A DNA stretch of 64,000 nucleotides from Aliiroseovarius pelagivivens (GTDB taxonomy: Bacteria; Pseudomonadota; Alphaproteobacteria; Rhodobacterales; Rhodobacteraceae), in NCBI RefSeq assembly GCF_900302485.1, contig NZ_OMOI01000001.1:2046001-2110000 (forward strand), written 5' to 3'. This document shows, piece by piece, positions 4,475 through 34,088 of the stretch. The stretch's first letter is position 1. Every line of letters begins with the position of its first letter. The position numbers and the translations under genes were made by a program. The notes under the pieces are model-generated. The model was given only the letters and a program-made list of their open reading frames with translations. It was not told the origin of the DNA and ran no database searches.

Positions 4475-4548
4475 GGCGAGTTGGCGGAGTGGTGACGCAG
4501 CGGATTGCAAATCCGTGTACACCGGTTCGATTCCGGTACTCGCCTCCA
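4475..4548 (+). tRNA. tRNA-Cys (GCA)
   Basis: A 74-nt cloverleaf with encoded CCA. Acceptor GGCGAGT pairs with ACTCGCC, the anticodon loop is TTGCAAA (anticodon GCA) in the stem GCGGA/TCCGT, and the T-arm loop contains TTCGATT. From the first T of the anticodon loop onward it is also the left attachment site of the island that follows: the last 44 nt recur exactly at 10553. Confidence 0.96.
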
Positions 4549-4549
4549 T
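4505..4549 (+). repeat. attL core: 3' half of tRNA-Cys, 45-bp direct repeat copy 1
   Basis: The 45 bp from the anticodon loop to one base past the CCA are identical to 10553-10597. Identity stops on both sides, which defines the crossover segment of a tyrosine-recombinase integration. The left copy keeps the tRNA intact. Confidence 0.95.
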
Positions 4550-4853: not shown

Positions 4854-5061
4854 CCTGTATGCATTTAGAGACAAGTAGAGTAGTATTCCGGCGCTCATCC
4901 GAAAGCCGCTGAATTCCATAACCAACTAAAAACTACTTCCACCGCCGAAAGGCAGCCACTTTACGTCAAGAAGTATCCACAATGCCTCGAAGATTTTGGG
5001 GCGCAATAATCCAGATAGTGCCCAAAAAACCACAAATCCCTGTATGCGTTTAGCGACAAGT
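4854..5061 (+). repeat. Imperfect 23-bp direct repeat in the left leader of the island
   Basis: The segments 4854-4876 and 5039-5061 match at 21 of 23 positions (both begin CCTGTATGC and end GACAAGT). The rest of the 625-bp stretch between tRNA-Cys and 5174 holds no gene I can support. The repeats could be regulatory or recombinase-binding sequences of the integration module. Confidence 0.4.
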
Positions 5062-5173
5062 TCAGAGGTTCTGATTGTCAAAATGAACTCGTGGTGTTGC
5101 CGCCGAATCCACCCCCATCTAGAATCTGCCTATCGGCGTTTGCATGCGTGGCTCACTCGCATTCAGCTGAAAG

Positions 5174-5392
5174 ATGCGCAAACACATAGAACCGTCAGAT
5201 CTTGGGATTGGATTTGGAATGACTGCGACACCTATCGAGAAAAAGGCGCTCGGCTTGCTCAACACCTTTGAGCGCGCGGGTAAGACGGTAAGTCGAGTCA
5301 CTATTGAAGGACGCAAAATTGAGATTGTGCTCTCGAAGCCCAAGGAACGCGATGAATTTGCGAGGATAGATATGCGCCATGGCAAAACGTGA
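5174..5392 (+). CDS. Small integrase-associated protein
   Basis: 72 aa, charged and soluble, with no membrane segment. Its last 14 bp overlap the integrase start (ATG at 5379 inside its terminal codons), so the two are probably translationally coupled. Similar small genes directly upstream of tyrosine integrases occur in Rhodobacterales islands (from memory, not searched). There is no recognisable helix-turn-helix, so an excisionase/directionality role is only a possibility. The ATG at 5174 lacks a strong Shine-Dalgarno. Confidence 0.55.
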   Translation: MRKHIEPSDLGIGFGMTATPIEKKALGLLNTFERAGKTVSRVTIEGRKIEIVLSKPKERDEFARIDMRHGKT

Positions 5393-6392
5393 GTTACCAA
5401 AACACGTCTACCGCCAAAGAAACGGGCTGTACTTTCAGCGCCGTGGCTGGCCTTCTCGGAAGTTTGTGAACGAATTTGGAAGCCCCGAATTCTGGCAAGA
5501 ATACGCAGATATTCTGAACGGCGATGCGCCAGTAGCGCGCGTGACAAAGCGCGATTTCGAAGCTTTGATAAAGAGCTATCGGCAATCTCCACGTTACGTT
5601 CGTCTCAAACCTCGCACCGCGTTGGATTACGACAAGTATCTAGAATTCTTTCGAGCACGGATGGGTACCGCAAATCCAGCGATCATGAAGCGGAAAGATG
5701 TAATACGTCTTCGAGACGCCAACGCTGACAAAATATACTTTGCTAACTACTCGCTGCGCGTCCTTCGTGTACTCATGGAACACTGTGTCGACCTCGGTTG
5801 GCGGGATGCAAATCCAGCGAAAGGCGTTTCGGAACTGAAAGCCGAAAGGAAAGAACGCGAGCCATGGCCGAGAGACCTGCTCGCCGCCTATCGTGCAGCA
5901 TGTCCACCTGGCACAAGAGAAAGGCTTCTCATGGAGCTTTGTGTTGGCACCGGTCAGCGAATTGGTGACGTGCTCGAAATGCGATGGTCAGATATTCAAG
6001 ATGGCGGCTTTGTTGTGAAGCAAAACAAGACCGGAAAAGAGCTTTGGGTTCCGATCTTGCATGAACTACTGACGTCCCTTGAAGCTGCAAACCGTCATTC
6101 AGTATTCATCCTGACCAATGAGAGGGGAACGAACCGCTGGTCATATCGCGGAGCTTCACAGGCCGTCAGAAACGTAAGGAAGCAGATCGGTGCGCTAGAC
6201 TACGACATTCATAGCTGGCGGTATAATGCGGCCTGCGAGCTAGTTGAAGCGGGTTGCAGCGATGATCTGGTTGCGGCGGTTACAGGACAGAGCCCGGCTA
6301 TGGTTCTGCATTACACCAAAAAAACTCGTCAAATGACCAGGGCAAAAGAGGCCCAAAGAAGACGCTCAAACCACATGAAATCGAAGAACTAA
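5379..6392 (+). CDS. Tyrosine recombinase / integrase of the tRNA-Cys island
   Basis: 337 aa phage-type integrase. The N-terminal half (about 50-150) is a SAM-like core-binding domain. The catalytic domain shows R194 in GTGQRIGDVLEMRW, a likely Lys in QNKTGKELWVPI, H278 and R281 in HSWRYNAAC, and the nucleophile Y312 in LHYTKKT. The position usually His/Trp after the Gly of the LGH box is Gln here (TGQSP), as in many island integrases. It reads away from tRNA-Cys and should catalyse recombination between the 45-bp cores. All catalytic residues are present, so it is probably active. Confidence 0.95.
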   Translation: MAKRELPKHVYRQRNGLYFQRRGWPSRKFVNEFGSPEFWQEYADILNGDAPVARVTKRDFEALIKSYRQSPRYVRLKPRTALDYDKYLEFFRARMGTANPAIMKRKDVIRLRDANADKIYFANYSLRVLRVLMEHCVDLGWRDANPAKGVSELKAERKEREPWPRDLLAAYRAACPPGTRERLLMELCVGTGQRIGDVLEMRWSDIQDGGFVVKQNKTGKELWVPILHELLTSLEAANRHSVFILTNERGTNRWSYRGASQAVRNVRKQIGALDYDIHSWRYNAACELVEAGCSDDLVAAVTGQSPAMVLHYTKKTRQMTRAKEAQRRRSNHMKSKN

Positions 6393-6393
6393 T

Positions 6394-6585
6394 ATGGATC
6401 AACTATTTTACCTCGTATTTATTATTGTAGCCTTAGCCTTTCTCATATGGCTGTATTTCATTCTGCCGAGCAATATGGCGAACTCTCGAAATAGGAACGC
6501 GACCCTATGGGTACTGATCGCAATCCTGATAAGCCCGGTTCTTGCCGTGCTGTTGCTTTTGGCGCTCGGTGACGCCGAAACATAG
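6394..6585 (+). CDS. Small two-helix membrane protein
   Basis: 63 aa with two hydrophobic segments (about residues 4-25 and 37-57) joined by a short polar loop (NMANSRNRNA). Its ATG falls two bases after the integrase stop, so it probably shares that transcript. I do not recognise a family. An accessory role for the island is possible but unsupported. The 400 bp after it (6586-6985) contain no gene I can support. Confidence 0.5.
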   Translation: MDQLFYLVFIIVALAFLIWLYFILPSNMANSRNRNATLWVLIAILISPVLAVLLLLALGDAET

Positions 6586-6985
6586 GGCGGAGAGCGGACA
6601 TTCGCTGCGGTCTTAACCAAGGTCGGCTATGCGCAGAAAGCGCACTTTGCAAAGTCTCGCTGACAATCAATATCTATCGTTCGTAATAAACGTCGCCACC
6701 TCATTGCAGTTTTGGCCATGCAGACGATAGTCGCTTGGCTTCCAGCGCTTTGGTCACACTATTGGTTTGGCTTCAGTAATTGGGCCCGTTCGCGTCAGCG
6801 TGCATCTTCAAAAGTTGAGCAAATCTTATATCAAAGTGTAGATCAATCCACGCTGCTCAGCATATTTTTCATAGCGGATGTTCGCCGTTCCCTCGACATG
6901 CCACGGTATACATGTTTGCATGTGAATTTCCTTTTTCGGCACAAGTGATACCTACGCGTTGCTTAGGGACAGGGCAATTAAACTC

Positions 6986-7816
6986 TTACAAGTTATATTT
7001 GGCCTTAACCTCTGCTAAGCACTTTCCTCTAGATATGCTGGAACGGCCATTCCGTGTCTGGTGCAATTCATTGCAGGAGAAGTTCTTCCATAACTTTCGA
7101 AAAGTCTCGCCTTCCTTGCTGGGGTCCCAATCGGCTCGCCTGCGCCACTTCTCTGCCCAACGGTGGCACATTTCGTCGAAGAGTTCTCTGTTAAACGTGA
7201 GGACAAGCGTGTCGACCGCAGCAACAGTTCGCTGCAGCATTGAAAAATCAACGGCAATCCTAACTGGCTTACGATACCTTTGCGCACCTAGCTGAACAGC
7301 GTTTCTACCCGGTAAAATTCCACCGTTGTGCACAAGCCCATGCCGCAAATGACATGCAATATCAAACTCTTTTAGCGGGCCGCTAAACTTGGCGTCCTTC
7401 AGTTCAAAACCAAGGTAGCCTTGAGATGCCTTTTTTAGCTCAGCTCTAGAGCTGAAGGACATGTGTTCAAATGCACTTCTCCTAAACTCAGAATGACCGT
7501 GCCATAGAACCCCACCTAAATTAATACTTTTTTCTGCAGCGGTCTCACGACAAATCGGGCAACCTTCGAGGCTTAATGACAATATTGACCGGAAGTAAGC
7601 TTCCGCAGCAGAAACCGATCCGAGAACAAGAAGACCTCCCAAATGCCCATTTTGAGACAACCTATCAACGGTTCCATAGGAAAGAAGGCTTCTTGAGCTC
7701 TTGATATACTCGTCTATCGGAGACTTGAGGTCTACTTCCGTTAAAACTGAATCTATCGATCCAATACTACCAGATGGCGGAGCCTCATTAACAAAATCTG
7801 CTACCTTCAGGCTCAT
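6986..7816 (-). CDS. HEPN-domain putative RNase, partner of the AAA ATPase
   Basis: 276 aa. A helical region around residues 60-85 (LGSVSAAEAYFRSIL) and the motif LRHGLVHNGG at about 157-166 place it with HEPN proteins: R158-x4-H163 matches the R-x4-6-H active site of HEPN ribonucleases such as RiboL-PSP, PrrC/RloC and abortive-infection effectors. CPIC near residue 86 is an isolated CxxC. The ATG overlaps the ATPase stop by 4 bp (ATGA), implying coupled translation and a shared complex or pathway. By analogy the product would be the toxic RNA-cleaving effector held in check by the ATPase. Activity is inferred from the motif only. Confidence 0.72.
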   Translation of the reverse strand: MSLKVADFVNEAPPSGSIGSIDSVLTEVDLKSPIDEYIKSSRSLLSYGTVDRLSQNGHLGGLLVLGSVSAAEAYFRSILSLSLEGCPICRETAAEKSINLGGVLWHGHSEFRRSAFEHMSFSSRAELKKASQGYLGFELKDAKFSGPLKEFDIACHLRHGLVHNGGILPGRNAVQLGAQRYRKPVRIAVDFSMLQRTVAAVDTLVLTFNRELFDEMCHRWAEKWRRRADWDPSKEGETFRKLWKNFSCNELHQTRNGRSSISRGKCLAEVKAKYNL

Positions 7817-9540
7817 GATACATGCTCTTCAGCAAGTGCCACAATTCTGGTCGCACGGACTTTTCCAATATAATTAATCCCTAAAAGAGTTTCACGGCTT
7901 GCATCGATCAAGATATCACGCACCTTTCGGATATGTGAATTAGATTTGATCCGTTTTAGCATCGCACTAGAAATAGGGAGAACGGAGATATCTTTCTGGA
8001 CGAGGGCTTCATAGGTGGACGACGGTTTCAACTGGGCCCCGCAATTTGAACAAAATTTCGCTTCCGGATTATCCCTAGGTGTATCGCAAGAATGACAGAG
8101 AGGAAGTGAAAGCGTAAAGGTGTCGGTATTCACGTTCGCCGCCTCAAAAAGACTATTAGTGCTAAGGCGTGGCCACGCATTGTGTCGAGTTGCTCTGATC
8201 ACTTCCAAGAAGCTTGGAATAGATTTTGTTCGCTTCCCCACGATGGTGTTCTCTGCAGTGAGATCCCCAATGTGGACGTCAAAAATCTTGAAGGTCCCTT
8301 TTTCTCCTTTGAGAACTTGCCCTGCAGGCATGATGAGGCCCGCATATTGAAGAAATCCAAAAACTTTGTCCAGATCTGCTCCCAGTGGCGTCTTTATCGC
8401 GAATTGAATGCCTTGCTTGGATGTCACCTTCCCTTTATTGAACGCCTTTAATTCGGAAAGAATTGATTGGTATAGCTTAGACCCATTTTCGACGTAGCTT
8501 TCGTACGAAGGCAGTTTTGCAGTTAGTGAGTCAAAAACTGCATGTGACATGTCTCTTCCTGCACGCGATAGCCGAAGTACTTTAGCTTTGTTTAGGCTAC
8601 CATCCGAATTCAGATATGCGTCTGGTGAGTTATAAATTGCTCGAAGCATTCCCAGAAAGCCTCGCGGCACGCCAAAGGACGCATATGCAAGAAAGCGTAT
8701 GTCTTCTTCATTATCTGAGATAAAATTCGCTCCCGTTCCCTCAAGGCGCTTAGTAGCAAGAGAAATCATGAACTCTTCGTACTCTGTGCCCGCCGGGCGG
8801 ACCCATGCGTCGATTTGCTCTGCATCGTGTCCAATATGAAAGCTAGCAGAGTTAGATGTGATACCAGGGTAAATAGCGGCTTTTGGCGACAACAAACGTG
8901 TCTTTATGGCTCGGAAGAAATCAAAGAAGTCCTCCTGCTGCTTTTCCGAAAAGGAATGTGCTGCGTCATCAATCAGTATCACGGAACGTGTCAGGTCATT
9001 CTCAGAAATAATTTCCTCAACTAACTCAATGAGAAGGCTTACTGTATATTCTTCGCCGGCTTCACCATCGGATCGATTTGCTTCTAAATTATTGATTTCT
9101 TGTGTTAATTTCTTCTTTGAGGGAAAGCGCGAAGGCTTCACGAGCCCATCAGACTCGTTGATTGCTTCTAAAGCCGACTGAAGGACCTTTAGAACAAGCC
9201 ACTTCTTAAACCAGTACGAAGCATTTGGCCCGTTCACATAGAAGGGCTCCAATTTGAGCGCCAGTTTGAAGTTGACGTAGATTGGAAATACACCTGAGAC
9301 ACCACCGTCTAAAGCACCGTAATACGCTTTACGCATGAGCGTGCTTTTACCACACCCCCTTGGACCGATCAGAAGCTTAGCACCGCCGCCGACAAGTTTC
9401 TTCAGAATGCTGGCTTCGCGTGGATGATCAGCTGCGAGCAAAAGAAATTTCTCGCGACCAATATATTCGGCTTGTTCGATGAAATTCTCTTCAAATGGCA
9501 ACTCATCGTTTGTCTCGTCGTTGAATAGTAATGATGACAT
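7813..9540 (-). CDS. AAA-type ATPase with zinc ribbon and C-terminal HhH-like tail
   Basis: 575 aa. Domains in order: AAA ATPase with Walker A IGPRGCGKS (58-66), Walker B VILIDD (187-192) and a sensor-2-like SFGVPRGFLGMLR (about 288-300), closest in style to ORC/CDC6-type STAND or defence ATPases; a helical/winged middle; a four-Cys zinc ribbon (C482, C485, C497, C500); and a helix-hairpin-helix-like tail (LLGINYIGKVRATRI, about 552-566) suggesting nucleic-acid contact. It is first in a two-gene minus-strand operon, overlapping the HEPN gene by 4 bp, inside a tRNA island. A sensor/regulator of the HEPN effector is the likely role; this is inference. Confidence 0.78.
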   Translation of the reverse strand: MSSLLFNDETNDELPFEENFIEQAEYIGREKFLLLAADHPREASILKKLVGGGAKLLIGPRGCGKSTLMRKAYYGALDGGVSGVFPIYVNFKLALKLEPFYVNGPNASYWFKKWLVLKVLQSALEAINESDGLVKPSRFPSKKKLTQEINNLEANRSDGEAGEEYTVSLLIELVEEIISENDLTRSVILIDDAAHSFSEKQQEDFFDFFRAIKTRLLSPKAAIYPGITSNSASFHIGHDAEQIDAWVRPAGTEYEEFMISLATKRLEGTGANFISDNEEDIRFLAYASFGVPRGFLGMLRAIYNSPDAYLNSDGSLNKAKVLRLSRAGRDMSHAVFDSLTAKLPSYESYVENGSKLYQSILSELKAFNKGKVTSKQGIQFAIKTPLGADLDKVFGFLQYAGLIMPAGQVLKGEKGTFKIFDVHIGDLTAENTIVGKRTKSIPSFLEVIRATRHNAWPRLSTNSLFEAANVNTDTFTLSLPLCHSCDTPRDNPEAKFCSNCGAQLKPSSTYEALVQKDISVLPISSAMLKRIKSNSHIRKVRDILIDASRETLLGINYIGKVRATRIVALAEEHVS

Positions 9541-9865
9541 GCCTGTTTATTCCTGTAATTCTTAGATCCCGCTACATTTGAGCCCGTTATTGCTCGTGCG
9601 TGTCACTAGTAGATTCGCATCAACGCCTTTGGGTCTAATGTCCCTAAATTACAAGACTTTGACAAGGTCACGGAGGGCAATGCCACTTTTGCGCGGCTAC
9701 GTCAGTCACCGTGATAGCGTAGTTGGGATCCAAAAGTCAGTTAGCGTTCTCCGGCCACTTTTCCAAATTCAGATTTGCAAAGTAAATATTCCCACCATTC
9801 CGCCGAGTTTTGAATTGTCAAACTATGAAGGTCCGCTTGTGTGCAAAGCCTGTCAAAAGCGCGTG

Positions 9866-9893
9866 CGGGCAGCGAAGGTAACTTCGCTGCCCG
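9866..9893. repeat. Perfect 12-bp inverted repeat, GTAA loop
   Basis: CGGGCAGCGAAG and its exact complement flank a 4-nt loop. There is no T tract on either side, so it is not a standard terminator. It sits in the 460-bp stretch between the ATPase start (9540) and the convergent lipoprotein end (10002). That stretch also holds a low-quality Cys-rich frame but no gene I trust. Confidence 0.6.
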
Positions 9894-10001
9894 AGGTGTA
9901 CTTATGCAATGTCTGCTTTGGGCTGGGAGCAGGCGTTAGATGCATTAAGCACGAATGTCCGTTCAGGGCCGTTATCTGTTGTTGCATCCCATTTCAGAGA
10001 T

Positions 10002-10331
10002 TCAGTTAATAATCACGTAACCAGGACGGCGCGACTGGCCAGCGATTACGGAACCATCATCCGTCTTTCGACGTTCGCAGGCAAATCTATGAATTTCCTC
10101 GGTTGTAAGTGCGTTGGCCGCATTGCCACCGCGGTAGTTCGCGAACTTCCCATACTTTGCACAGTGCTTAACCGCCATGTCCTGTGCCTCAGCCGTCAGC
10201 GTAGGAACTGTATCATAGGCGCTGTAGCGTATGGAAATTGCATTCTCAGAAGCATATTCTGCCATCGGAGTGGTCGGTGCCATACAACCAGTCAATACTA
10301 CCAACAGCATACCGCCTACAACGCTTCTCAT
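10002..10331 (-). CDS. Small lipoprotein of the tRNA-Cys island
   Basis: 109 aa. The N-terminus has a lipoprotein signal with lipobox LTGC (MRSVVGGMLLVVLTGC), followed by about 90 residues of a polar domain rich in Ala, Tyr and Arg with no recognised family. The start at 10331 is chosen because AGGTG lies about 5 nt upstream and the signal peptide fits; an in-frame ATG at 10355 would put a charged leader in front. It is the last gene before the right attachment copy. It resembles lysogenic-conversion-type surface lipoproteins, but no function can be assigned. Confidence 0.65.
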   Translation of the reverse strand: MRSVVGGMLLVVLTGCMAPTTPMAEYASENAISIRYSAYDTVPTLTAEAQDMAVKHCAKYGKFANYRGGNAANALTTEEIHRFACERRKTDDGSVIAGQSRRPGYVIIN

Positions 10332-10466
10332 ATTACACCTATAATTTGAATTCATTCGTACAATCTCCATCAATAGGGAACGTATGAGGCCAAATAAAAA
10401 AGGGCAAGTGGCAATCTGAAAAGAGAGATTTTCGTCGTTGTGGTCTCGAGTGGGTCACATTCAGCA

Positions 10467-10481
10467 GGCGTCTAAACATTC
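10467..10481 (+). repeat. Candidate integrase arm-type site, right end
   Basis: GGCGTCTAAACATTC, 71 bp inside the right attachment core, shares GGCGTCTAAAC with 4594-4604 and TCTAAACATTC with the copy ending at 4620. Its position near the opposite end makes an arm site plausible. Confidence 0.45.
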
Positions 10482-10552
10482 GCCAAACGTTCTGCCAATT
10501 TTGCACGTTGCTCTAAACCGATTGTGCATTGCTTTCAGCAGCATGCTTAGTC

Positions 10553-10597
10553 TTGCAAATCCGTGTACACCGGTTCGATTCCGGTACTCGCCTCCAT
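10553..10597 (+). repeat. attR core: tRNA-Cys fragment, 45-bp direct repeat copy 2
   Basis: Exact copy of 4505-4549. It lacks the 5' half of the tRNA, so it is not a functional tRNA gene. It marks the right end of the island. The following 400 bp up to 11006 hold no gene I can support and should contain the promoter of the oxidoreductase gene. Confidence 0.95.
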
Positions 10598-11006
10598 TAT
10601 TTGCCAAGCAACTGCCGTGTCTTCCATAGTGATGCGTTCATCGCTTGGCAGCCACTTTCCGGGCAGACTAAATACTGGCAACTCGCGACAGCATTTTAGC
10701 CCCACGCATCTCCCCTAGGTCGTTTCCGGGCACCCGTGCCCGACGATTTGTTATGGCTGTGGACGGGGCGGCATTACTGCTCAAAAGTAGAGTCTTTCAG
10801 GTCAAATTTCACATGCAACACGTGCGAGGTGCGATATTCTTCTACCTTGAGTTGCCGTGCTGCGAAAAATATTCGCTTTCCGCCTGCATTTCAGCACGAA
10901 CAATGTTGGCGGATCAGTCCTCATCAGCAATGGTTAACAATACTTAACCAAGATCAATAGTTTGAAATGATCACTTTCGACAGCATCAGTTTATTGGGGA
11001 CATAAA

Positions 11007-13925
11007 ATGGAGAAGCAGAAGATCGCCGTGATTGGTGGCGGAGTCGGGGCCATGACGGCCATTTATGCGATCACGCAAACCGCGGATTGGGACAAGAAAT
11101 ACGACATTACCGTCTATCAGCTGGGCTGGCGGACAGGCGGCAAGGGCGCCAGCGGGCGCAATGCTAAGTTTGGTCAACGGATCGAAGAACATGGCCTGCA
11201 TGTCTGGGCTGGGTTCTATCAGAACGCCTTTCGCAACATGCGCCTTTGCTATGAACAGATGGTCGAACTGGGATTGCGCAAGAAAAGCGACCCGCTTGGC
11301 ACGATGGACAAAGCGTTTAAGCCACTGTCACATCTATTTCTGGCAGAAAACGTGCCAACCGATGACCCGGACGGAAACCCGTGGCGTCCTTGGGTAATTG
11401 ATCTACCCGAATATGACGACGTGCCGGGCGACGAGACCGAGGTTCCCTCGCCTTTCGAAATGATGATGCGGATTTTGCAGATCATGATCGAATTCCTGCG
11501 CCGTGGCGAACTTGAAGGCGGCGCGGATGGACCACTGGGGATCGAGGTGCCGGATGGCCTGCTGGGCCGCCATGAAAGCATCCTGTCACACCTGAAAGCT
11601 CTGCCAGGGGCCGGCCTTCCCGTGGGGCCGCACAACTCGGACCTGCTGCTTGAGATCATCGAAGACGCACAGGCCGAGGTGCACAGCCAGCAGACGCCCG
11701 AAAACATGGCGCGCGACAGCGTGCGCCGGGGCTTAAACCTGATGGATATCGGGCTGGGCTATATGCACGGAGTGGTCAGCTCGGACACGTTCACAAACGG
11801 CTATGACGTGCTGGACCAGTGGGAGTTCTCTGACTGGCTGCGCATGAATGGCGTCAGCGATCAGGCGCTGAAATGGGTGTCGATCCGGGGCTGCTATGAC
11901 TTCGTGTTCGGCTTTCCCATGGGTAACACCGAACGTCAGGGCGACACTGGCGCAGGTACAGCCCTGCGCGCGATGACGCGGCTGATCTTCACCTATTCCG
12001 GGGCGATCTTTCACAAGATGCAAGCCGGGATGGGCGACACGATCTTTGGACCATATTATCAGGTTCTGAAAGAGCTGGGCGTGAAGTTTGAGTTCTTCAA
12101 CGCCGCCCGAAACCTGCATTTGGACGAAGATCGCACCCATATCGACCGCATCAGCATGGTGCGGCAGGCCAAGGTGAAATCCGGCACATATGACCCGCTG
12201 GTCGACGTGGATGGCCTGCCCTGCTGGCCATCGGAACCCCTTTGGGATCAGCTGGAAGACGGCGCGCATCTAAAAGACAGTGGCGTCGATTTCGAAAGCG
12301 AGCGCACGCCACCCAAGGGCGAGGCCTATACCCTAAAACGGGGCGAAGATTTCGACCTTGTGATCCTTGGCGCCTCGATCGGGTCGCTTCCCTATATGTC
12401 GCAAGAGCTGTCCATCGCGTCCGAGCGCTGGCGCAACATGCTGGACCGGGTCAAGACTGTCCCGACCCATGCGATGCAGCTTTGGATGAACAAAACCCCG
12501 AAACAGATGGGGTGGGAAAAACTGGTAAAGGCGCATAACTCGCAAAAGTCGCTGCCCTCGTCCCCGATGCGGACGGTCATCACCGGCTTTTCCGAGCCGC
12601 TGGACACCTGGGCGGACATGTCCCACCTGATCCCACACGAGGATTGGGGCACCGACAAACCCAAGTCCATCGCCTATTTCTGCTCACCCGCGCCGGATGG
12701 CGAAGATCTTCCAGATTTCCGCGAAAACTTTGGTCGCTGGATGGACAAGGATCTGGTCAAGCTTTGGCCAGGGGCGGAAAAGGACGGCAAGTTTGATCGC
12801 AGCCTTCTGCACGAGAACGAAGAGGCAGGAATCTATTCCCGCGTGAACATGTACGGCTCGGAACGCTATGTGCTGTCGGTGACCAACAGCGTCTATCACC
12901 GGCTGGCTCCGTCCCAAAGCGGCTTTGCCAACCTGTATCTTGCGGGTGACTGGACGCGCTGCGGGATGAATGCAGGCTGCGTCGAGGGTGCAACCATGTC
13001 GGGGATCGCCTGTGCGTCCGCTGTCACGGGTGAAAAGCTGTTGAATGTCGGGGCCGAGGACATCGCCCGCGAGGAAACCGTATCAGAAAAGGCGATGTTC
13101 CAGACGAACTCGATCTCGGGCACGAAATGGCCGCTGACACCGTTCTTTGCCCGAGGCGAGATGACCGGCGTCTTCCTTTTCTACGAAGTGCCCCGTGCCG
13201 AGGTTCAGGCCATGTTGCCGCCCGGGATCGAGCTGGGACCAAGCCCCCTGACCCGGCCGGGGTATCACCCTGTTGGCATGTCGTTCTGTAGCTATCACAA
13301 TGTGCGGGGGTCGTTTATTCCGGACTTCATGGCGATGTCCCCTTATGGCGAGGCCACCTTTGCCATCCCCTATACCCGCACCGCCGAAGCACGGCAGGCG
13401 CCGCTTCTCTATCCGCGCAGGCTGTATGTGAACAGCAAGTCCGCCATCATGGCCGGCAAGGTGTTCTATGCGATGCCGAAGGTTTGGTCCGACATCAAAC
13501 TGGAAAACACGCGTTTCACCGCAACCGGCGCACGCGGGATGAAGATCGAGGCCACCTTCCAACAGCATATGGACCCCGATCCCCTGCCCGGTCATCCGGC
13601 ACAGGGGGCGATCTCGAATCTGTTGAACATGACCTTCGTGACGCGCAATGCCTCGGGACGTCTGTTCTACAACGCCTTCGACCTACAATTGGACCGTGCT
13701 TATGTCGCCCCGGTGTCTGCCCAAATTGAAGTTAAAGACCCGGATCCTAACGGTTTTCCAACAACTTCGTTTGACGCCGCCCCGCTTCAGTTGCAAACTG
13801 GTGAACGCCTTCCCGGAGCATTCCGGGTGTGGTGCTCATGGGCGATGACCAACCCGCTGGACAGCAAGCGGGTGCGTCACGCAGCCATGGCACGAGAGTG
13901 GGTGCGTCAGAGGTCGATGAGGTGA
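11007..13925 (+). CDS. FAD-dependent oxidoreductase fused to acetoacetate-decarboxylase-like domain
   Basis: 972 aa fusion. Residues 1 to about 680 form an amine-oxidase/phytoene-desaturase-type flavoprotein: Rossmann GGGVGAM near the N-terminus, GWRTGGKGAS around 38-47, the substrate-lid-like EEHGLHVWAGFYQNAF, and a C-terminal FAD-contact segment YLAGDWTRCGMNAGCVEGA. From about 696 (ISGTKWPLTPFF) the sequence resembles acetoacetate decarboxylase-fold proteins; MPKVWSD occupies the place of the Lys-Lys active-site motif but keeps only one Lys. Substrate unknown; hydroxysqualene dehydroxylase- or carotenoid-like chemistry is possible. The cyclase gene starts 2 bp after its stop, so the two form an operon. 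Confidence 0.75.
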   Translation: MEKQKIAVIGGGVGAMTAIYAITQTADWDKKYDITVYQLGWRTGGKGASGRNAKFGQRIEEHGLHVWAGFYQNAFRNMRLCYEQMVELGLRKKSDPLGTMDKAFKPLSHLFLAENVPTDDPDGNPWRPWVIDLPEYDDVPGDETEVPSPFEMMMRILQIMIEFLRRGELEGGADGPLGIEVPDGLLGRHESILSHLKALPGAGLPVGPHNSDLLLEIIEDAQAEVHSQQTPENMARDSVRRGLNLMDIGLGYMHGVVSSDTFTNGYDVLDQWEFSDWLRMNGVSDQALKWVSIRGCYDFVFGFPMGNTERQGDTGAGTALRAMTRLIFTYSGAIFHKMQAGMGDTIFGPYYQVLKELGVKFEFFNAARNLHLDEDRTHIDRISMVRQAKVKSGTYDPLVDVDGLPCWPSEPLWDQLEDGAHLKDSGVDFESERTPPKGEAYTLKRGEDFDLVILGASIGSLPYMSQELSIASERWRNMLDRVKTVPTHAMQLWMNKTPKQMGWEKLVKAHNSQKSLPSSPMRTVITGFSEPLDTWADMSHLIPHEDWGTDKPKSIAYFCSPAPDGEDLPDFRENFGRWMDKDLVKLWPGAEKDGKFDRSLLHENEEAGIYSRVNMYGSERYVLSVTNSVYHRLAPSQSGFANLYLAGDWTRCGMNAGCVEGATMSGIACASAVTGEKLLNVGAEDIAREETVSEKAMFQTNSISGTKWPLTPFFARGEMTGVFLFYEVPRAEVQAMLPPGIELGPSPLTRPGYHPVGMSFCSYHNVRGSFIPDFMAMSPYGEATFAIPYTRTAEARQAPLLYPRRLYVNSKSAIMAGKVFYAMPKVWSDIKLENTRFTATGARGMKIEATFQQHMDPDPLPGHPAQGAISNLLNMTFVTRNASGRLFYNAFDLQLDRAYVAPVSAQIEVKDPDPNGFPTTSFDAAPLQLQTGERLPGAFRVWCSWAMTNPLDSKRVRHAAMAREWVRQRSMR

Positions 13926-13927
13926 AT

Positions 13928-16771
13928 ATGCTGGCTATGAGTTGTATGTCATGCGCGGAACCGCTGCATGAAGGGGCGCGGTTTTGCAGCCATTGCGGAA
14001 CCGAGGTTTTGGCCTTGGACGACAATCCCGAGCTACGCATCCTAACCATTCAGTTCATCGACCTTGTCGGTTCGACCGCCTTTGCGAACTCGACCGAGCT
14101 TGAGACCTATGACGACACCATTGCCGCATTTCATCAGCAGGTGAACGAAACAGTCGAGACCTATCGCGGCAGGGTGCTGCAGCGCTATGGCGACGGGGTG
14201 CTGTCCTGCTTCGGGCTGGACCATGACGGCGAGGATTCGGCACTGTCTGCCATTGCCTCGGGCTTGTCGATCGCCAAGGCCATGCCCGAGCGCGTGAATG
14301 GGTTACAGGTGCGCGTGGGGATCGATACTGGCCAGATCATGTGTCGCGTCGGCCAACAGGGTGCCCTATTTCCGCAGCTGACCGGGCTGCATGTTAACCG
14401 CGCCGCGCGTTTGCAGGAACAGGCCCCCACGGGCGGAGTCGTGATCTCGGGCCAAACCAAATCGTTCCTGTCGCGTCTGGCACGGCTTGACGAAGCCTCG
14501 CATGACACACGTCTTCTGAAAGGCATCGACCAGCCGGTCGAGCTGATCGAAGTGGCTGGCTTTCAGTTTCAAGAGGATCACACCGAAGTGTCCGACCTGC
14601 TGGAGCGCGACAAAGAACTCGCCCTTCTGCAGAGCGACACCAGCCGTGCACACGCAATTATTGGCCCAGCGGGCATCGGGAAAACTGTTCTGCTGGATGC
14701 TTTCAGCCGCACTCAGAAGAACGCAGGCATCGTCAGGATTGACGCCCGCGCAAACCTTCAGCAGTCCGCGTTATTCCCGGTCGTGGAAACCCTGCGGCGC
14801 GAGCTGGATCTGCATGCGCAATCCTCACTGGCTGACTTGGCGACGCAGTTTCAATCCATCGGGGTGGCGCTGACAGATCAGGACGTGATGGTGATGGCCG
14901 GCCTACTTGGCCTGCAAGTCGCCCTGCCCGTTCTTCTGACGCCTGAACAGCTTCAATCGCGCAGGATCACATTGGCCACCCACGCGCTGGCCGGATTGGC
15001 GCAGACCCGAACCGCAGCTTTGACCTTCGATGACCTGCACTGGTTCGATGAAGGCACGATTGCGGTGCTTCAGGCGCTGATGCTGGCCGAGGGCACACCG
15101 CCCCGCATCGTTGTCACCAGCCGACCGTCCGAGAAAATCGATGCGCTGCTGGAAAGCGCCCCGGTCACGCCGGTCCATCTGGCCCCTCTGTCCGATGAAG
15201 CCGCAAAAGAAGCCCTGTCCACCTATGCCGAACTGGACGACGCCAAACGCGCGCGGATCATTGAAGCGGCCGAGGGCAACCCCCTGTTCCTTTCCGCTCT
15301 CGCCACCCATGCGCGTCAATTCGGTGACGCCGATGGATCGCAACAGCTGCCCCAGACAATCGAGGCCACCTTTCAGGCTATTATCAATGGGTTCGGCGCA
15401 CTGCGCGACGTGATCCAATGCGCCGCGATCCTTGGACGTGATTTCCAGCCGGAACGTGTGGCACACCTTCTGCCAACGCGTCCTAACCTTGAAGACGAAC
15501 TCCGCGTCTTGACCATCCGAGGGATCTTCAATCCGTATGGTGATGGCGCATTGTTCTTCGATCACATCCTTCTGCGCGATGCGGCTTACGAGATGATCCC
15601 CGGCAAGCGTCGACGCGCTTTGCACAAGAGTTTTGCGGACGCTATGCAGACGCACGATCCGGCCTATTGTGCCGCTTACCCACATCTGATGGCCGATCAC
15701 CGCATGGCTGCACGCGATCACGAGAACCTTCCGGGGGCATGTATCGCGGCAGGCATTCACATGCTGATGGCCGTAAACTTTGATCAGTCCATGACATATC
15801 TCGATCACGCGCGCACAGATATGGAAGATCAAGCCGCGCCCGATCAGGTTGCGCGCCCGGAATACCTTCCGGTGCTCTCGCTTCTGGCCAGCGCCACGGT
15901 CCAGCGCATGGGGTTCTCGCACCCGGTGGTGCTGGAGCGGTATCAGTTGCTGGAAGACGCCATCGCCTATGCCGAGGGAACGGACCGCATGCGAATGACC
16001 GCGCTTTATGGCCTGTTTGCACATCGCATCATCAACGGGCGCGTGCGTGAAAGCGGCGAGTATGTCGAGATGATGGAGAAATTGGCGCGCGATGGCGATG
16101 ACGAGCTGAAGGTCATGTGGCTGGTGAATGAAACCGCCCACGCGCTGTATTCGGGACAGTTTGATCAGGCCGCCGACAGAAGTGCGCAACTAAAATCCAT
16201 CTATCGAGTCGAGGATCACGGTCGCTTGTTCCTGGAACTGGGCGCAGACCCGCTGGCGTCGGTTCTTTCGGCAGATGCCCATGTCGCAAGCCGCAGGGGG
16301 GATCTGGACGGCGCACTCGCAGCGATGTCACAGGCGCAAGAGCACCTGAAGACCATCGGGGCCATTGCGCAAATTCCGTGGATCCACATTTTCGGAGGAC
16401 AAGCCCTGTTGGCTGGCGGTCATCTGGATCTTGCGGCCCGTGAAGTCGAGGCAGGGATCGAGATCGCTGACGAGCAACAAGCGCAGTTCTGGTCTTTGAT
16501 CGGGCGCGTCTGGATGACCATCGTTCAAATCTATCAGGGCAACACGACCGAGGCCCCCGGCGCATTAGAAATGCTGACCGGACAGGCCAGCATGATAGGT
16601 GCGGATTTGAACGCCCCTTTCTATAAAGCTGCCCTTGCAAAGGCTCTTTTGACAAACGGAGATCTGGAAGCAGCGCAAACGCTGTTGGATCAGGCAGAAC
16701 AATTGTCTGAAACAACGGGCGAACACGAGTGGGACAGTTCCATCCGCGAAATCCGAACAGAACTGGCATAG
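13928..16771 (+). CDS. Zinc-ribbon / class III nucleotide cyclase / AAA ATPase / TPR signalling protein
   Basis: 947 aa. Order: N-terminal zinc ribbon (CMSC and CSHC pairs, about 6-26); class III cyclase domain (about 35-200) with metal Asp in FIDLVGST, second Asp in RYGDGVLSCFG and transition-state Asn/Arg in VNRAARLQ; AAA/STAND ATPase with Walker A IGPAGIGKT and Walker B ALTFDDLHWFD; long C-terminal TPR region. The start at 13928 has GAGGTGA just upstream and follows the oxidoreductase stop by 2 bp; a longer frame from 13829 would overlap that gene. It probably makes cAMP in response to a signal sensed by the ATPase/TPR part. A Crp-family gene lies convergent 355 bp away. Confidence 0.88.
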   Translation: MLAMSCMSCAEPLHEGARFCSHCGTEVLALDDNPELRILTIQFIDLVGSTAFANSTELETYDDTIAAFHQQVNETVETYRGRVLQRYGDGVLSCFGLDHDGEDSALSAIASGLSIAKAMPERVNGLQVRVGIDTGQIMCRVGQQGALFPQLTGLHVNRAARLQEQAPTGGVVISGQTKSFLSRLARLDEASHDTRLLKGIDQPVELIEVAGFQFQEDHTEVSDLLERDKELALLQSDTSRAHAIIGPAGIGKTVLLDAFSRTQKNAGIVRIDARANLQQSALFPVVETLRRELDLHAQSSLADLATQFQSIGVALTDQDVMVMAGLLGLQVALPVLLTPEQLQSRRITLATHALAGLAQTRTAALTFDDLHWFDEGTIAVLQALMLAEGTPPRIVVTSRPSEKIDALLESAPVTPVHLAPLSDEAAKEALSTYAELDDAKRARIIEAAEGNPLFLSALATHARQFGDADGSQQLPQTIEATFQAIINGFGALRDVIQCAAILGRDFQPERVAHLLPTRPNLEDELRVLTIRGIFNPYGDGALFFDHILLRDAAYEMIPGKRRRALHKSFADAMQTHDPAYCAAYPHLMADHRMAARDHENLPGACIAAGIHMLMAVNFDQSMTYLDHARTDMEDQAAPDQVARPEYLPVLSLLASATVQRMGFSHPVVLERYQLLEDAIAYAEGTDRMRMTALYGLFAHRIINGRVRESGEYVEMMEKLARDGDDELKVMWLVNETAHALYSGQFDQAADRSAQLKSIYRVEDHGRLFLELGADPLASVLSADAHVASRRGDLDGALAAMSQAQEHLKTIGAIAQIPWIHIFGGQALLAGGHLDLAAREVEAGIEIADEQQAQFWSLIGRVWMTIVQIYQGNTTEAPGALEMLTGQASMIGADLNAPFYKAALAKALLTNGDLEAAQTLLDQAEQLSETTGEHEWDSSIREIRTELA

Positions 16772-32884: not shown

Positions 32885-32959
32885 GCCCGGGTAGCTCAGG
32901 GGTAGAGCAGTGGATTGAAAATCCTCGTGTCGGTGGTTCGATTCCGCCCCCGGGCACCA
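32885..32959 (+). tRNA. tRNA-Phe (GAA)
   Basis: 75 nt with encoded CCA: acceptor GCCCGGG/CCCGGGC, D-arm GCTCAGGGGTAGAGC, anticodon loop TTGAAAA (GAA), T-stem GGTGG/CCGCC. The anticodon stem GTGGA/TCCTC contains one T·T mismatch (28·42). The 3' 45 nt recur at 34089, so this gene is also an attachment site. Confidence 0.95.
32915..32959 (+). repeat. attL core: 3' half of tRNA-Phe, 45-bp direct repeat copy 1
   Basis: From the first T of the anticodon loop to CCA, identical to 34089-34133. Identity ends at both borders. Same length and same starting point in the tRNA as the tRNA-Cys island core. Confidence 0.95.
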
Positions 32960-32988
32960 TTTAAATCAAAGAGTTAGCTGGTTTTAGA

Positions 32989-33025
32989 TTTGTCTCGCAG
33001 ACACTTTGTCTCGCGTTTGTCTCAG
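32989..33025 (+). repeat. Three TTTGTCTC repeats, left end of the tRNA-Phe element
   Basis: TTTGTCTCGC at 32989-32998 and 33005-33014, and TTTGTCTCAG at 33016-33025, 30-65 bp inside the attachment core. Their position and iteration suit integrase arm-type sites (inference). Confidence 0.55.
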
Positions 33026-33144
33026 GTTCATATTTTGTTCTTTTTGGTCCTTTGCCGCAAAATGTTGTGGATTTTCTTGAAGTAGGCACAAGTGACACCT
33101 AAGTTGCGAGTGATCGAGTAATTCAGCAATTTAGGGATGAATAG

Positions 33145-33336
33145 ATGGCAAGAGATTTTGAAGTTGGCGAAGTGGTGATGCTTAAGTCAGGTGGACCGGA
33201 AATGACTGTAAAAAAAGCGGAAACCACATTTGGGGACAACGACGTACAGTGTCAGTGGTTTGGAGGCCGAAAACTTGAAAGTGGATATTTTCCACCTGCG
33301 TCTCTAGTTCTCGTGGAGGACGACAGCAATGAATAA
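33145..33336 (+). CDS. YodC/DUF2158 family small protein
   Basis: 63 aa. The pattern of an N-terminal VGEVVMLKSGGPEMTV, a central QCQWFGGRKLESGYF and a final SLVLVED matches the YodC/DUF2158 family, small all-beta proteins often found on phages and islands and of unknown function. Its stop overlaps the next start by 8 bp, suggesting an operon. Confidence 0.82.
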   Translation: MARDFEVGEVVMLKSGGPEMTVKKAETTFGDNDVQCQWFGGRKLESGYFPPASLVLVEDDSNE

Positions 33337-33604
33337 CAGCCAACCTACAACAGATGACGTCGCAGAGTGGATGCAGCAGCAATCTCTCTCAGGTGAGTTA
33401 TACCAAGATGATGCTGTCTGGACGATAATGAAGAAGTTTGGGAAGCAATTTACCTACGACAATGCCAACGGAAACCCGGCAATCGACAAGAAGGTACTGG
33501 ACAAGTTTAAGAAGATTAGCGGCGATGATATTGTTTGGTCACGTAGTGGGCGACTTTGGAGAAAGCGAACGGCCAGGGATGAACCTGGCCGGATGCAAGA
33601 ATAG
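33329..33604 (+). CDS. Small protein resembling DUF6953
   Basis: 91 aa. The layout VAEWM, GELYQDDAVWTIMKKFG, then NGNPAIDKKVLDKF and a terminal VWSRSGRLWRKR resembles a widespread small uncharacterised family (DUF6953 from memory). It looks like a winged-helix-type fold but function is unknown. It overlaps the YodC-like gene by 8 bp. Confidence 0.65.
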   Translation: MNNSQPTTDDVAEWMQQQSLSGELYQDDAVWTIMKKFGKQFTYDNANGNPAIDKKVLDKFKKISGDDIVWSRSGRLWRKRTARDEPGRMQE

Positions 33605-33616
33605 TTTTCGGATTGC

Positions 33617-33871
33617 CTAATCGGCAAGAGTGAAGTCGACATAGAACTCTTGGTCGACCACAAACTTTCCAAACAAGTTGGGGTTACGAATATCAATCTC
33701 GAATGACGCAGACGGGGACCACTTGGCATAAGTGTTGTTCTCGTCGTCGCCAGTCTCGTCGTAACCCTCACTTTTGGAGACTGCCGTCATTTTCAGAATC
33801 TCACCCATTATCTCTTCATCTGACCCTTTTTGTTCTTCCACAGAAAGGACACGCATTTTTGCTCGCATCAT
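33617..33871 (-). CDS. Small phage-like protein of unknown function
   Basis: 84 aa, starting MMRAKMRVLSVEEQ. The end (SASFEIDIRNPNLFGKFVVD and FYVDFTLAD) looks like a beta-rich small protein seen in phages and islands (memory, not searched). No good Shine-Dalgarno is visible; 33868 or the GTG at 33910 are alternative starts. It converges on the previous gene with 12 bp between. Confidence 0.55.
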   Translation of the reverse strand: MMRAKMRVLSVEEQKGSDEEIMGEILKMTAVSKSEGYDETGDDENNTYAKWSPSASFEIDIRNPNLFGKFVVDQEFYVDFTLAD

Positions 33872-33956
33872 AAAAATTGTGGTTATTTGGTAATAGCAAC
33901 AGTCTACCACGGCTGGCTGTATCGAGCTAACTTAGGTCGTGGATTTTGACTCATTG

Positions 33957-33989
33957 TTGTCTCAAGAATGTTGTTTGCTGCGAGACAAA
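33957..33989 (+). repeat. TTGTCTCA and inverted TTTGTCTCGC, right end of the tRNA-Phe element
   Basis: TTGTCTCA at 33957-33964 and GCGAGACAAA (the exact complement of the left repeat) at 33980-33989, about 100 bp inside the right core. They mirror the left-end repeats. Confidence 0.5.
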
Positions 33990-34088
33990 ATTATTTCTGA
34001 GCCTGTTCAGATGGTTATGAGTCACCGACCAGAGGATCAATTATTCTCGTGTCGGTTAAGTCTCTGAATTCTAAGACGGACAACCCGG

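Follow-up and report, generated by a model that had tools for sequence, protein, structure and literature searches.

The 64,000-nucleotide window analyzed here, taken from contig NZ_OMOI01000001.1 of Aliiroseovarius pelagivivens (positions 2,046,001 to 2,110,000; assembly GCF_900302485.1), carries a small island integrated at a tRNA gene, and within it a gene pair encoding an ORC/CDC6-STAND type AAA+ ATPase and a predicted HEPN RNase (Table 1). Both genes run co-directionally on the minus strand, the ATPase gene first, and share the four base pairs ATGA at 7813-7816. A first-pass annotation, made from the sequence alone, had proposed a candidate undescribed defence system on the grounds of this 4-bp overlap between open reading frames (ORFs) for proteins of 575 and 276 residues, Walker A and B motifs in the ATPase, an R158-x4-H163 motif in its partner and an island holding little else. 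All of these features were borne out: the ORFs and the shared ATGA are as described, the Walker motifs are invariant or nearly so among relatives, the two partner residues are fully conserved, and the island consists of the tRNA-Cys gene, a repeat of its end, an integrase and small ORFs besides the pair.

Table 1. Features of the ATPase-HEPN locus and its island. Positions refer to the window; AF2, AlphaFold2; pLDDT, predicted local distance difference test; att, attachment site; aa, amino acids.
Feature	Position	Strand	Evidence
ORC/CDC6-STAND type AAA+ ATPase, 575 aa, ATG start	7813..9540	-	PF24389 41.4 bits (cut-off 27); AF2 mean pLDDT 86.2
Walker A, G59-S66 (GPRGCGKS)	9343..9366	-	K65 in 42/42 pairs
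Walker B, V187-H195 (VILIDDAAH)	8956..8982	-	D191, D192 in 42/42 pairs
G290-x-P292-R293	8662..8673	-	G, P, R in 42/42 pairs
Four-cysteine zinc ribbon, C482-C500	8041..8097	-	C482/C485/C497/C500 in 42/42 pairs
Helix-hairpin-helix-like tail, residues 510-575	7816..8013	-	PF14520 19.4 bits (cut-off 27)
HEPN protein, predicted RNase effector, 276 aa, ATG start	6986..7816	-	Motif conservation; AF2 mean pLDDT 88.8; VIA-align
HEPN motif 1, E72-x3-R76	7589..7603	-	42/42 pairs
HEPN motif 2, R158-H159-x3-H163	7328..7345	-	42/42 pairs
tRNA-Cys(gca), integration target	4475..4548	+	ARAGORN
att repeat, left copy (tRNA-Cys 3' end)	4505..4549	+	Perfect 45-bp direct repeat
att repeat, right copy	10553..10597	+	Perfect 45-bp direct repeat
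Tyrosine integrase of the island, 337 aa	5379..6392	+	PF00589, 63.1 bits

HEPN RNases are defined by an Rx4-6H motif with a polar residue after the arginine and by an upstream acidic residue within an Ex3[KR] motif (PMC3710099), and the partner protein has both. Beyond the 42 pairs of Table 1 (counts that omit the broken or cut loci L025, L028, L029, L038 and L040-L043, as well as L048, a copy of L031, and L031 itself, whose HEPN start was not picked by our ORF rule), R158 and H163 recur in 105/105 homologues, H159 in 104 of the 105 and E72-x3-R76 in all 103 rows that are ungapped in this alignment. The AF2 model is helical, and its three best matches in VIA-align were HEPN domains, of moderate strength, with HEPN toxins that have an MNT antitoxin as the best bacterial structures among the matches listed. 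Foldseek alone returned noise and nothing significant for the HEPN model, searches of the PDB by single sequence or profile gave nothing useful, and the protein had no match in PADLOC-DB 2.0. The motifs and the predicted fold together make it very probable that this protein belongs to the HEPN RNases.

In the ATPase, Walker A, Walker B and the GxP/sensor-2 region are kept in 41 or all 42 of the aligned pairs; G290-x-P292-R293 we take to be a STAND-like GxP motif with a candidate sensor-2 arginine. The AF2 model aligns with Cdc6 and STAND-type chains up to about residue 430 and has a predicted winged-helix C-terminal domain. Its fold matches include replication and transposition ATPases alongside immune ones, and our sequence searches gave no match to a characterised non-defence family. 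Such a match, an unconserved pairing or the lack of a predicted HEPN fold had been named in the first-pass annotation as findings that would refute it, and none of the three was obtained. PDB sequence searches gave little for this protein, which matched neither an ABC family above cut-off nor DUF499 at E ≤ 1. The zinc ribbon proposed earlier is upheld by its four conserved cysteines, but its Zn_Ribbon_1 match of 18.6 bits falls below the Pfam cut-off of 25. The proposed helix-hairpin-helix-like tail likewise retains a likeness to its Pfam model, at a score below cut-off, and profile searches of the PDB ranked RNA polymerase alpha subunits first (E 0.028 and 0.084); its resemblance to a helix-hairpin-helix domain, like that to the alpha C-terminal domain, is thus weak and to be taken as suggestive only. 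Two PADLOC matches to the ATPase, mad8 (the best, at 20.5 bits over the P-loop domain, residues 56-207) and PDC-S01, were rejected because each covers the P-loop part alone.

The pairing first noted at this one locus is conserved. Scans of a genome collection and of viral contigs gave 48 loci, two of which (L029 and L040) end inside the ATPase gene, and in all 46 with downstream sequence a HEPN relative, or its remains, directly follows the ATPase gene; L031 and L048, which are one genome, are both among the 46, and some HEPN starts in this survey are those of the longest ORF rather than the true ones. Five of the 46 HEPN ORFs are shortened or interrupted (L025, L028, L041, L042, L043). By a simple pattern, both HEPN motifs lie in frame, 86-88 residues apart, in 39/48 loci, and L036 and L045 have close variants of it. 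Across 39 two-gene pairs, the distances among the ATPases correlate with those among the HEPN proteins at r 0.909, against a maximum of 0.186 in 1,000 permutations; neighbouring genes inherited together also yield such a correlation, which therefore establishes co-inheritance, not contact. That the association is more than chance follows from conservation combined with strict pairing, not from the motif alone. Among individual loci, the ATPase gene of L038 is interrupted by an ORF that by eye resembles a transposase (L038:9989-13095), with a full-length downstream HEPN ORF that keeps its motifs; the HEPN gene of L025 is split by an ORF resembling, again by eye, an IS110-type transposase (L025:11665-14105), with an intact ATPase gene; and plasmids of Piscirickettsia salmonis (e.g., L055:4112-5285) carry ATPase-tail-like fragments adjoining a partial HEPN gene, apparently remnants.

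Two-gene copies occur in eight phyla (Pseudomonadota, Bacillota, Bacteroidota, Actinomycetota, Acidobacteriota, Campylobacterota, Verrucomicrobiota and Omnitrophota), which are intermixed in a tree of 52 ATPases; the 39 two-gene ATPases group weakly in it (70/41), L036 being a long branch of unsure placement. Counting the window's own genome each time, and at the thresholds used, a homologue was found in 2/21 genomes of the genus (the other, in 1/20 congeners, is distant), in two of 295 genomes of the family at E 1e-20 (the other being 27% identical) and in 4/398 genomes of the phylum. Such a wide yet sparse spread is typical of an accessory module that moves horizontally.

A sister clade carries a third gene. 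In plasmid relatives of ~27-30% identity, an N6-adenine methyltransferase gene lies directly upstream of the ATPase gene and a HEPN gene downstream of it; when two loci from genomes and ten from viral contigs are added, 15/15 sister loci have the methyltransferase, and all 14 that include downstream sequence have the HEPN gene (at L057/L090, which are one locus, no downstream ORF was seen). Several of these loci are near-copies, about 10 being distinct; the ten trio ATPases included in the tree fall into a single clade (100/99). The linked adenine methyltransferase, a trait of type II restriction-modification, belongs to the sister clade only and is not found at the window locus; when it was sought elsewhere in genomes with the two-gene form, 0/15 had it, but so did 0/14 controls, which renders the comparison uninformative. 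The L095 methyltransferase matches PADLOC entry PDLC03285 at 784 bits. As for a cognate DNA endonuclease, the other trait of type II systems, neither PADLOC nor PHROGs matched the L092 ATPase and HEPN or the L095 HEPN, PADLOC gave no match for P0226, and a Pfam scan of three plasmid trios, which covered only the trio genes, found no nuclease family. One trio (L095/L103) corresponds to positions 335287-339242 of E. coli HS, where methyltransferase, ATPase and HEPN genes lie beside a tyrosine integrase; the 'viral' label of L095 is not to be over-read, because the sequence comes from E. coli HS, where it adjoins prophage genes and has an integrase of its own. The E. coli trio matches 148 of 5,426 complete genomes, in 145 of them over at least 80% of the trio length, and the L092 trio has no match in E. 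coli genomes. In the E. coli isolate AF58, the trio follows tRNA-Thr and an integrase, an island layout that matches the one in the window. One two-gene case and three three-gene cases are plasmid-borne; phage records contained no match to the ATPase, to a HEPN protein of the sister clade or to the HEPN protein of the E. coli type, and neither window protein matched PHROGs. A third arrangement was seen at L050 and L058, one of which belongs to the window's own genus: here distant ATPases have a HEPN-like Rx6H gene, identified by eye, upstream instead of downstream.

At the window locus, the island spans ~6.05 kb between tRNA-Cys and the second perfect copy of its last 45 bases. Its region (5001 to 11000) has a GC content of 0.465-0.508 per kilobase, lower than that of the flanks (0.532-0.603 in the five kb before, 0.580-0.603 in the five kb after). 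Apart from the pair and the integrase, the ORFs are small, and two of them matched no family when scanned against Pfam; among the five island ORFs scanned in total, there was no helicase, methyltransferase or nucleotidyltransferase. The tRNA-Cys gene looks like an integration hotspot in the genus: 11/20 congeners have a further match of 44-60 bases to its end on the same contig, to which other tRNA-Cys genes could contribute. A search for the empty site in congeners did not reveal one, as no right flank turned up within 1.5 kb of their tRNA-Cys; G004 has these flanks at a distance of 3.7 kb, separated by two large unrelated ORFs, and in G009 they are ~26 kb apart. Between the tRNA and the integrase lies a direct repeat of 23 nt, 91% identical (4854-4876 / 5039-5061), possibly integrase arm sites. 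Elsewhere in the window, the GC content falls to 0.449 directly after tRNA-Phe (32885-34000), which suggests a second small island, and a 980-residue ORF (13829-16771) resembles, by eye, a class III adenylate cyclase that has a zinc ribbon and also an ATPase part.

Defence genes adjoin some of the other loci. In L039 (Lachnospiraceae), the pair is embedded in a bacteriophage exclusion (BREX) operon of the order brxA, brxB, brxC, pglX, ATPase, HEPN, a 230-residue ORF, pglZ, brxL, and L025 is arranged likewise, except that its HEPN gene carries an insert. The trio of E. coli HS lies upstream of an annotated BREX locus and ends ~1.7 kb before brxA; BREX of this strain has reportedly been studied. 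No BREX genes lie within 8 kb of the AF58 trio, a span that contains a type I restriction subunit, and a type IV restriction enzyme is encoded upstream at L013. For a wider view, the nearest 150 of 260 neighbouring ORFs of at least 150 residues within 5 kb were chosen, and 142 were scanned together; of the eight outside this set, five were scanned singly, one of L029 and two of L031 being omitted, and L039 and L048, as near-copies, did not enter the scan. Among the matches listed for the 142 neighbours were PtuA/PtuB, type II methyltransferases and NERD-UvrD, one member each, as single occurrences and not as a measured enrichment (by motif reading, PtuA/PtuB, a cytosine methyltransferase and NERD-UvrD were assigned to L015, L023 and L026), as well as TniQ, assigned to L020 in the same way, and an IS110-type transposase in 4/142; no transposase in these matches was common to the loci. 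A DpdF match at L036 was dropped, the protein being topoisomerase I.

HEPN RNases under the control of an NTPase are an already known kind of system; what distinguishes the present pair is that an ORC/CDC6-STAND ATPase is combined with a separate HEPN protein. HEPN/MNT toxin-antitoxin modules differ in that the partner is an MNT nucleotidyltransferase instead of an ATPase, and RADAR, which also relies on an ATPase (RdrA), differs in its effector RdrB, which is a deaminase and not a HEPN protein. The comparison with PrrC and RloC, drawn in the first-pass annotation, holds insofar as these are NTPase-controlled HEPN RNases, PrrC being tied to a restriction-modification system (PMC3710099); it fails with respect to architecture, as their HEPN domain is fused to an ABC ATPase, whereas the window has two ORFs and an ATPase of the ORC/CDC6-STAND type. 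The DUF499 systems (Type-1 BR / Hma) join a STAND/ORC-CDC6 ATPase to a HEPN RNase and include an N6-methyltransferase (PMC12839542), but there the HEPN domain is fused to the ATPase and a helicase-nuclease is present, and the window ATPase lacks a DUF499 match. PARIS likewise consists of two genes for a sensor ATPase and an RNA-cleaving effector and has been recruited into BREX loci, where it forms a second layer (PMC12839542); its AriA, however, is an OLD-ABC ATPase and its AriB a TOPRIM RNase, and the window proteins have no TOPRIM or OLD match at E ≤ 1. According to the same source, BREX loci can contain backup RNases, among them HEPN ones, with no mention of the present ATPase partner in the part of the article available. 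SspC of the phosphorothioate-based Ssp system is an ATPase of the Orc/Cdc6 clade (PMC10853773), but its partners differ and the DNA mark is a sulphur one. A distant ORC/CDC6-like ATPase on a Planktothrix plasmid (L056) lies beside a phosphoadenosine phosphosulphate (PAPS) reductase gene and a helicase, resembling an Ssp-type locus. As to novelty, neither window protein has a convincing match in PADLOC 2.0, and the combination was not described among the literature matches listed, a scope that did not extend to the supplementary tables of one 2026 E. coli screen, in which a relative may be found; 'undescribed', as claimed at the outset, is thus not proved. That screen, DefensePredictor, reported 42 validated E. 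coli systems, with HEPN domains in four and P-loop domains in seven among 31 of them (PMC13092281); the sister trio may be one of the 42.

At the level of sequence, the locus combines intact ATPase motifs and an intact predicted RNase site with an ATPase gene that overlaps the HEPN gene next to it and with joint inheritance of the two. We consider it probable, at roughly 0.7, that the pair is a self-contained, horizontally moving immune module in which the ATPase gates a predicted HEPN RNase. The ATPase would serve as sensor and switch, responding to an infection cue upon which it would assemble or change shape with ATP; this cue would most likely be foreign DNA, read via the winged-helix domain, the ribbon and the tail, or else a phage protein. 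The switched ATPase might then gather HEPN protomers or free them, allowing a HEPN dimer to cut RNA (tRNA or mRNA), with the effect that translation and phage growth would stop, possibly at the cell's cost. In the sister clade, the linked methyltransferase suggests that a DNA mark serves as the self signal, such that in the three-gene form this enzyme probably marks self DNA; the two-gene form, devoid of it, would have to use another cue or another methyltransferase. Carried further, this amounts to restriction-modification with an RNA-cutting arm, a proposal that we put forward as possible yet tentative: the methyltransferase would mark self, the ORC/CDC6 ATPase would be loaded onto unmarked DNA and in this state turn on the HEPN RNase, and the two-gene form would either read another mark, as hinted at by its location in a BREX operon between pglX and pglZ, or sense phage replication directly.

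Could the module instead serve its own maintenance? As a toxin-antitoxin or addiction module, the HEPN protein would be the toxin and the ATPase would mainly silence it, thereby stabilizing the island. The overlapping order, with a regulator gene first and a toxin gene second, would suit such an arrangement, as would the MNT-regulated HEPN toxins among the structural matches and the location on an integrase island or, in a few cases, on plasmids. We nevertheless judge it unlikely, since a large ATPase with all its catalytic and zinc motifs conserved exceeds the needs of a simple antitoxin, the full-length HEPN ORF behind the interrupted ATPase gene of L038 suggests that a HEPN gene can persist without an intact ATPase, and the methyltransferase of the sister clade points to DNA sensing.

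The genomic neighbourhoods are not uniform, and the survey for defence islands that the first-pass annotation had proposed gave a mixed picture: BREX and restriction contexts surround some loci, but housekeeping-type neighbours were found at L001, L016, L033, L036 and L038, which weighs against a general defence context. These at least five copies beside housekeeping genes, along with an ORC/CDC6-like fold bearing appendages of a DNA-binding type, would be in line with a stress or DNA-damage response, in which damaged or stalled host DNA would be the signal for the ATPase, the HEPN RNase would slow growth and phage defence would be incidental. The sporadic spread (a single distant homologue in 20 congeners, two carriers in 295 family genomes), the island location and the BREX and methyltransferase neighbours make this highly unlikely. 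Hardly credible, in our view, is a function for the mobile element itself, with the ATPase as a TnsC/MuB-like target-selection or maintenance factor and the HEPN protein as an accessory: the island has its own tyrosine integrase, and enzymes of this class are not known to depend on such an ATPase; moreover, with no shared transposase among the neighbour matches, the constant partner of the ATPase is a predicted RNase.

If the immune-module interpretation is correct, it would add a widespread immune module in which an NTPase gates an RNase, with copies in eight phyla and a three-gene sister in E. coli, strain HS included. As this sister trio occurs in 148 of the 5,426 E. coli genomes, among them HS, it is testable in laboratory E. 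coli, and the methyltransferase-bearing form would allow one to ask if a DNA mark licenses the RNase, joining the logic of restriction-modification to that of abortive infection.
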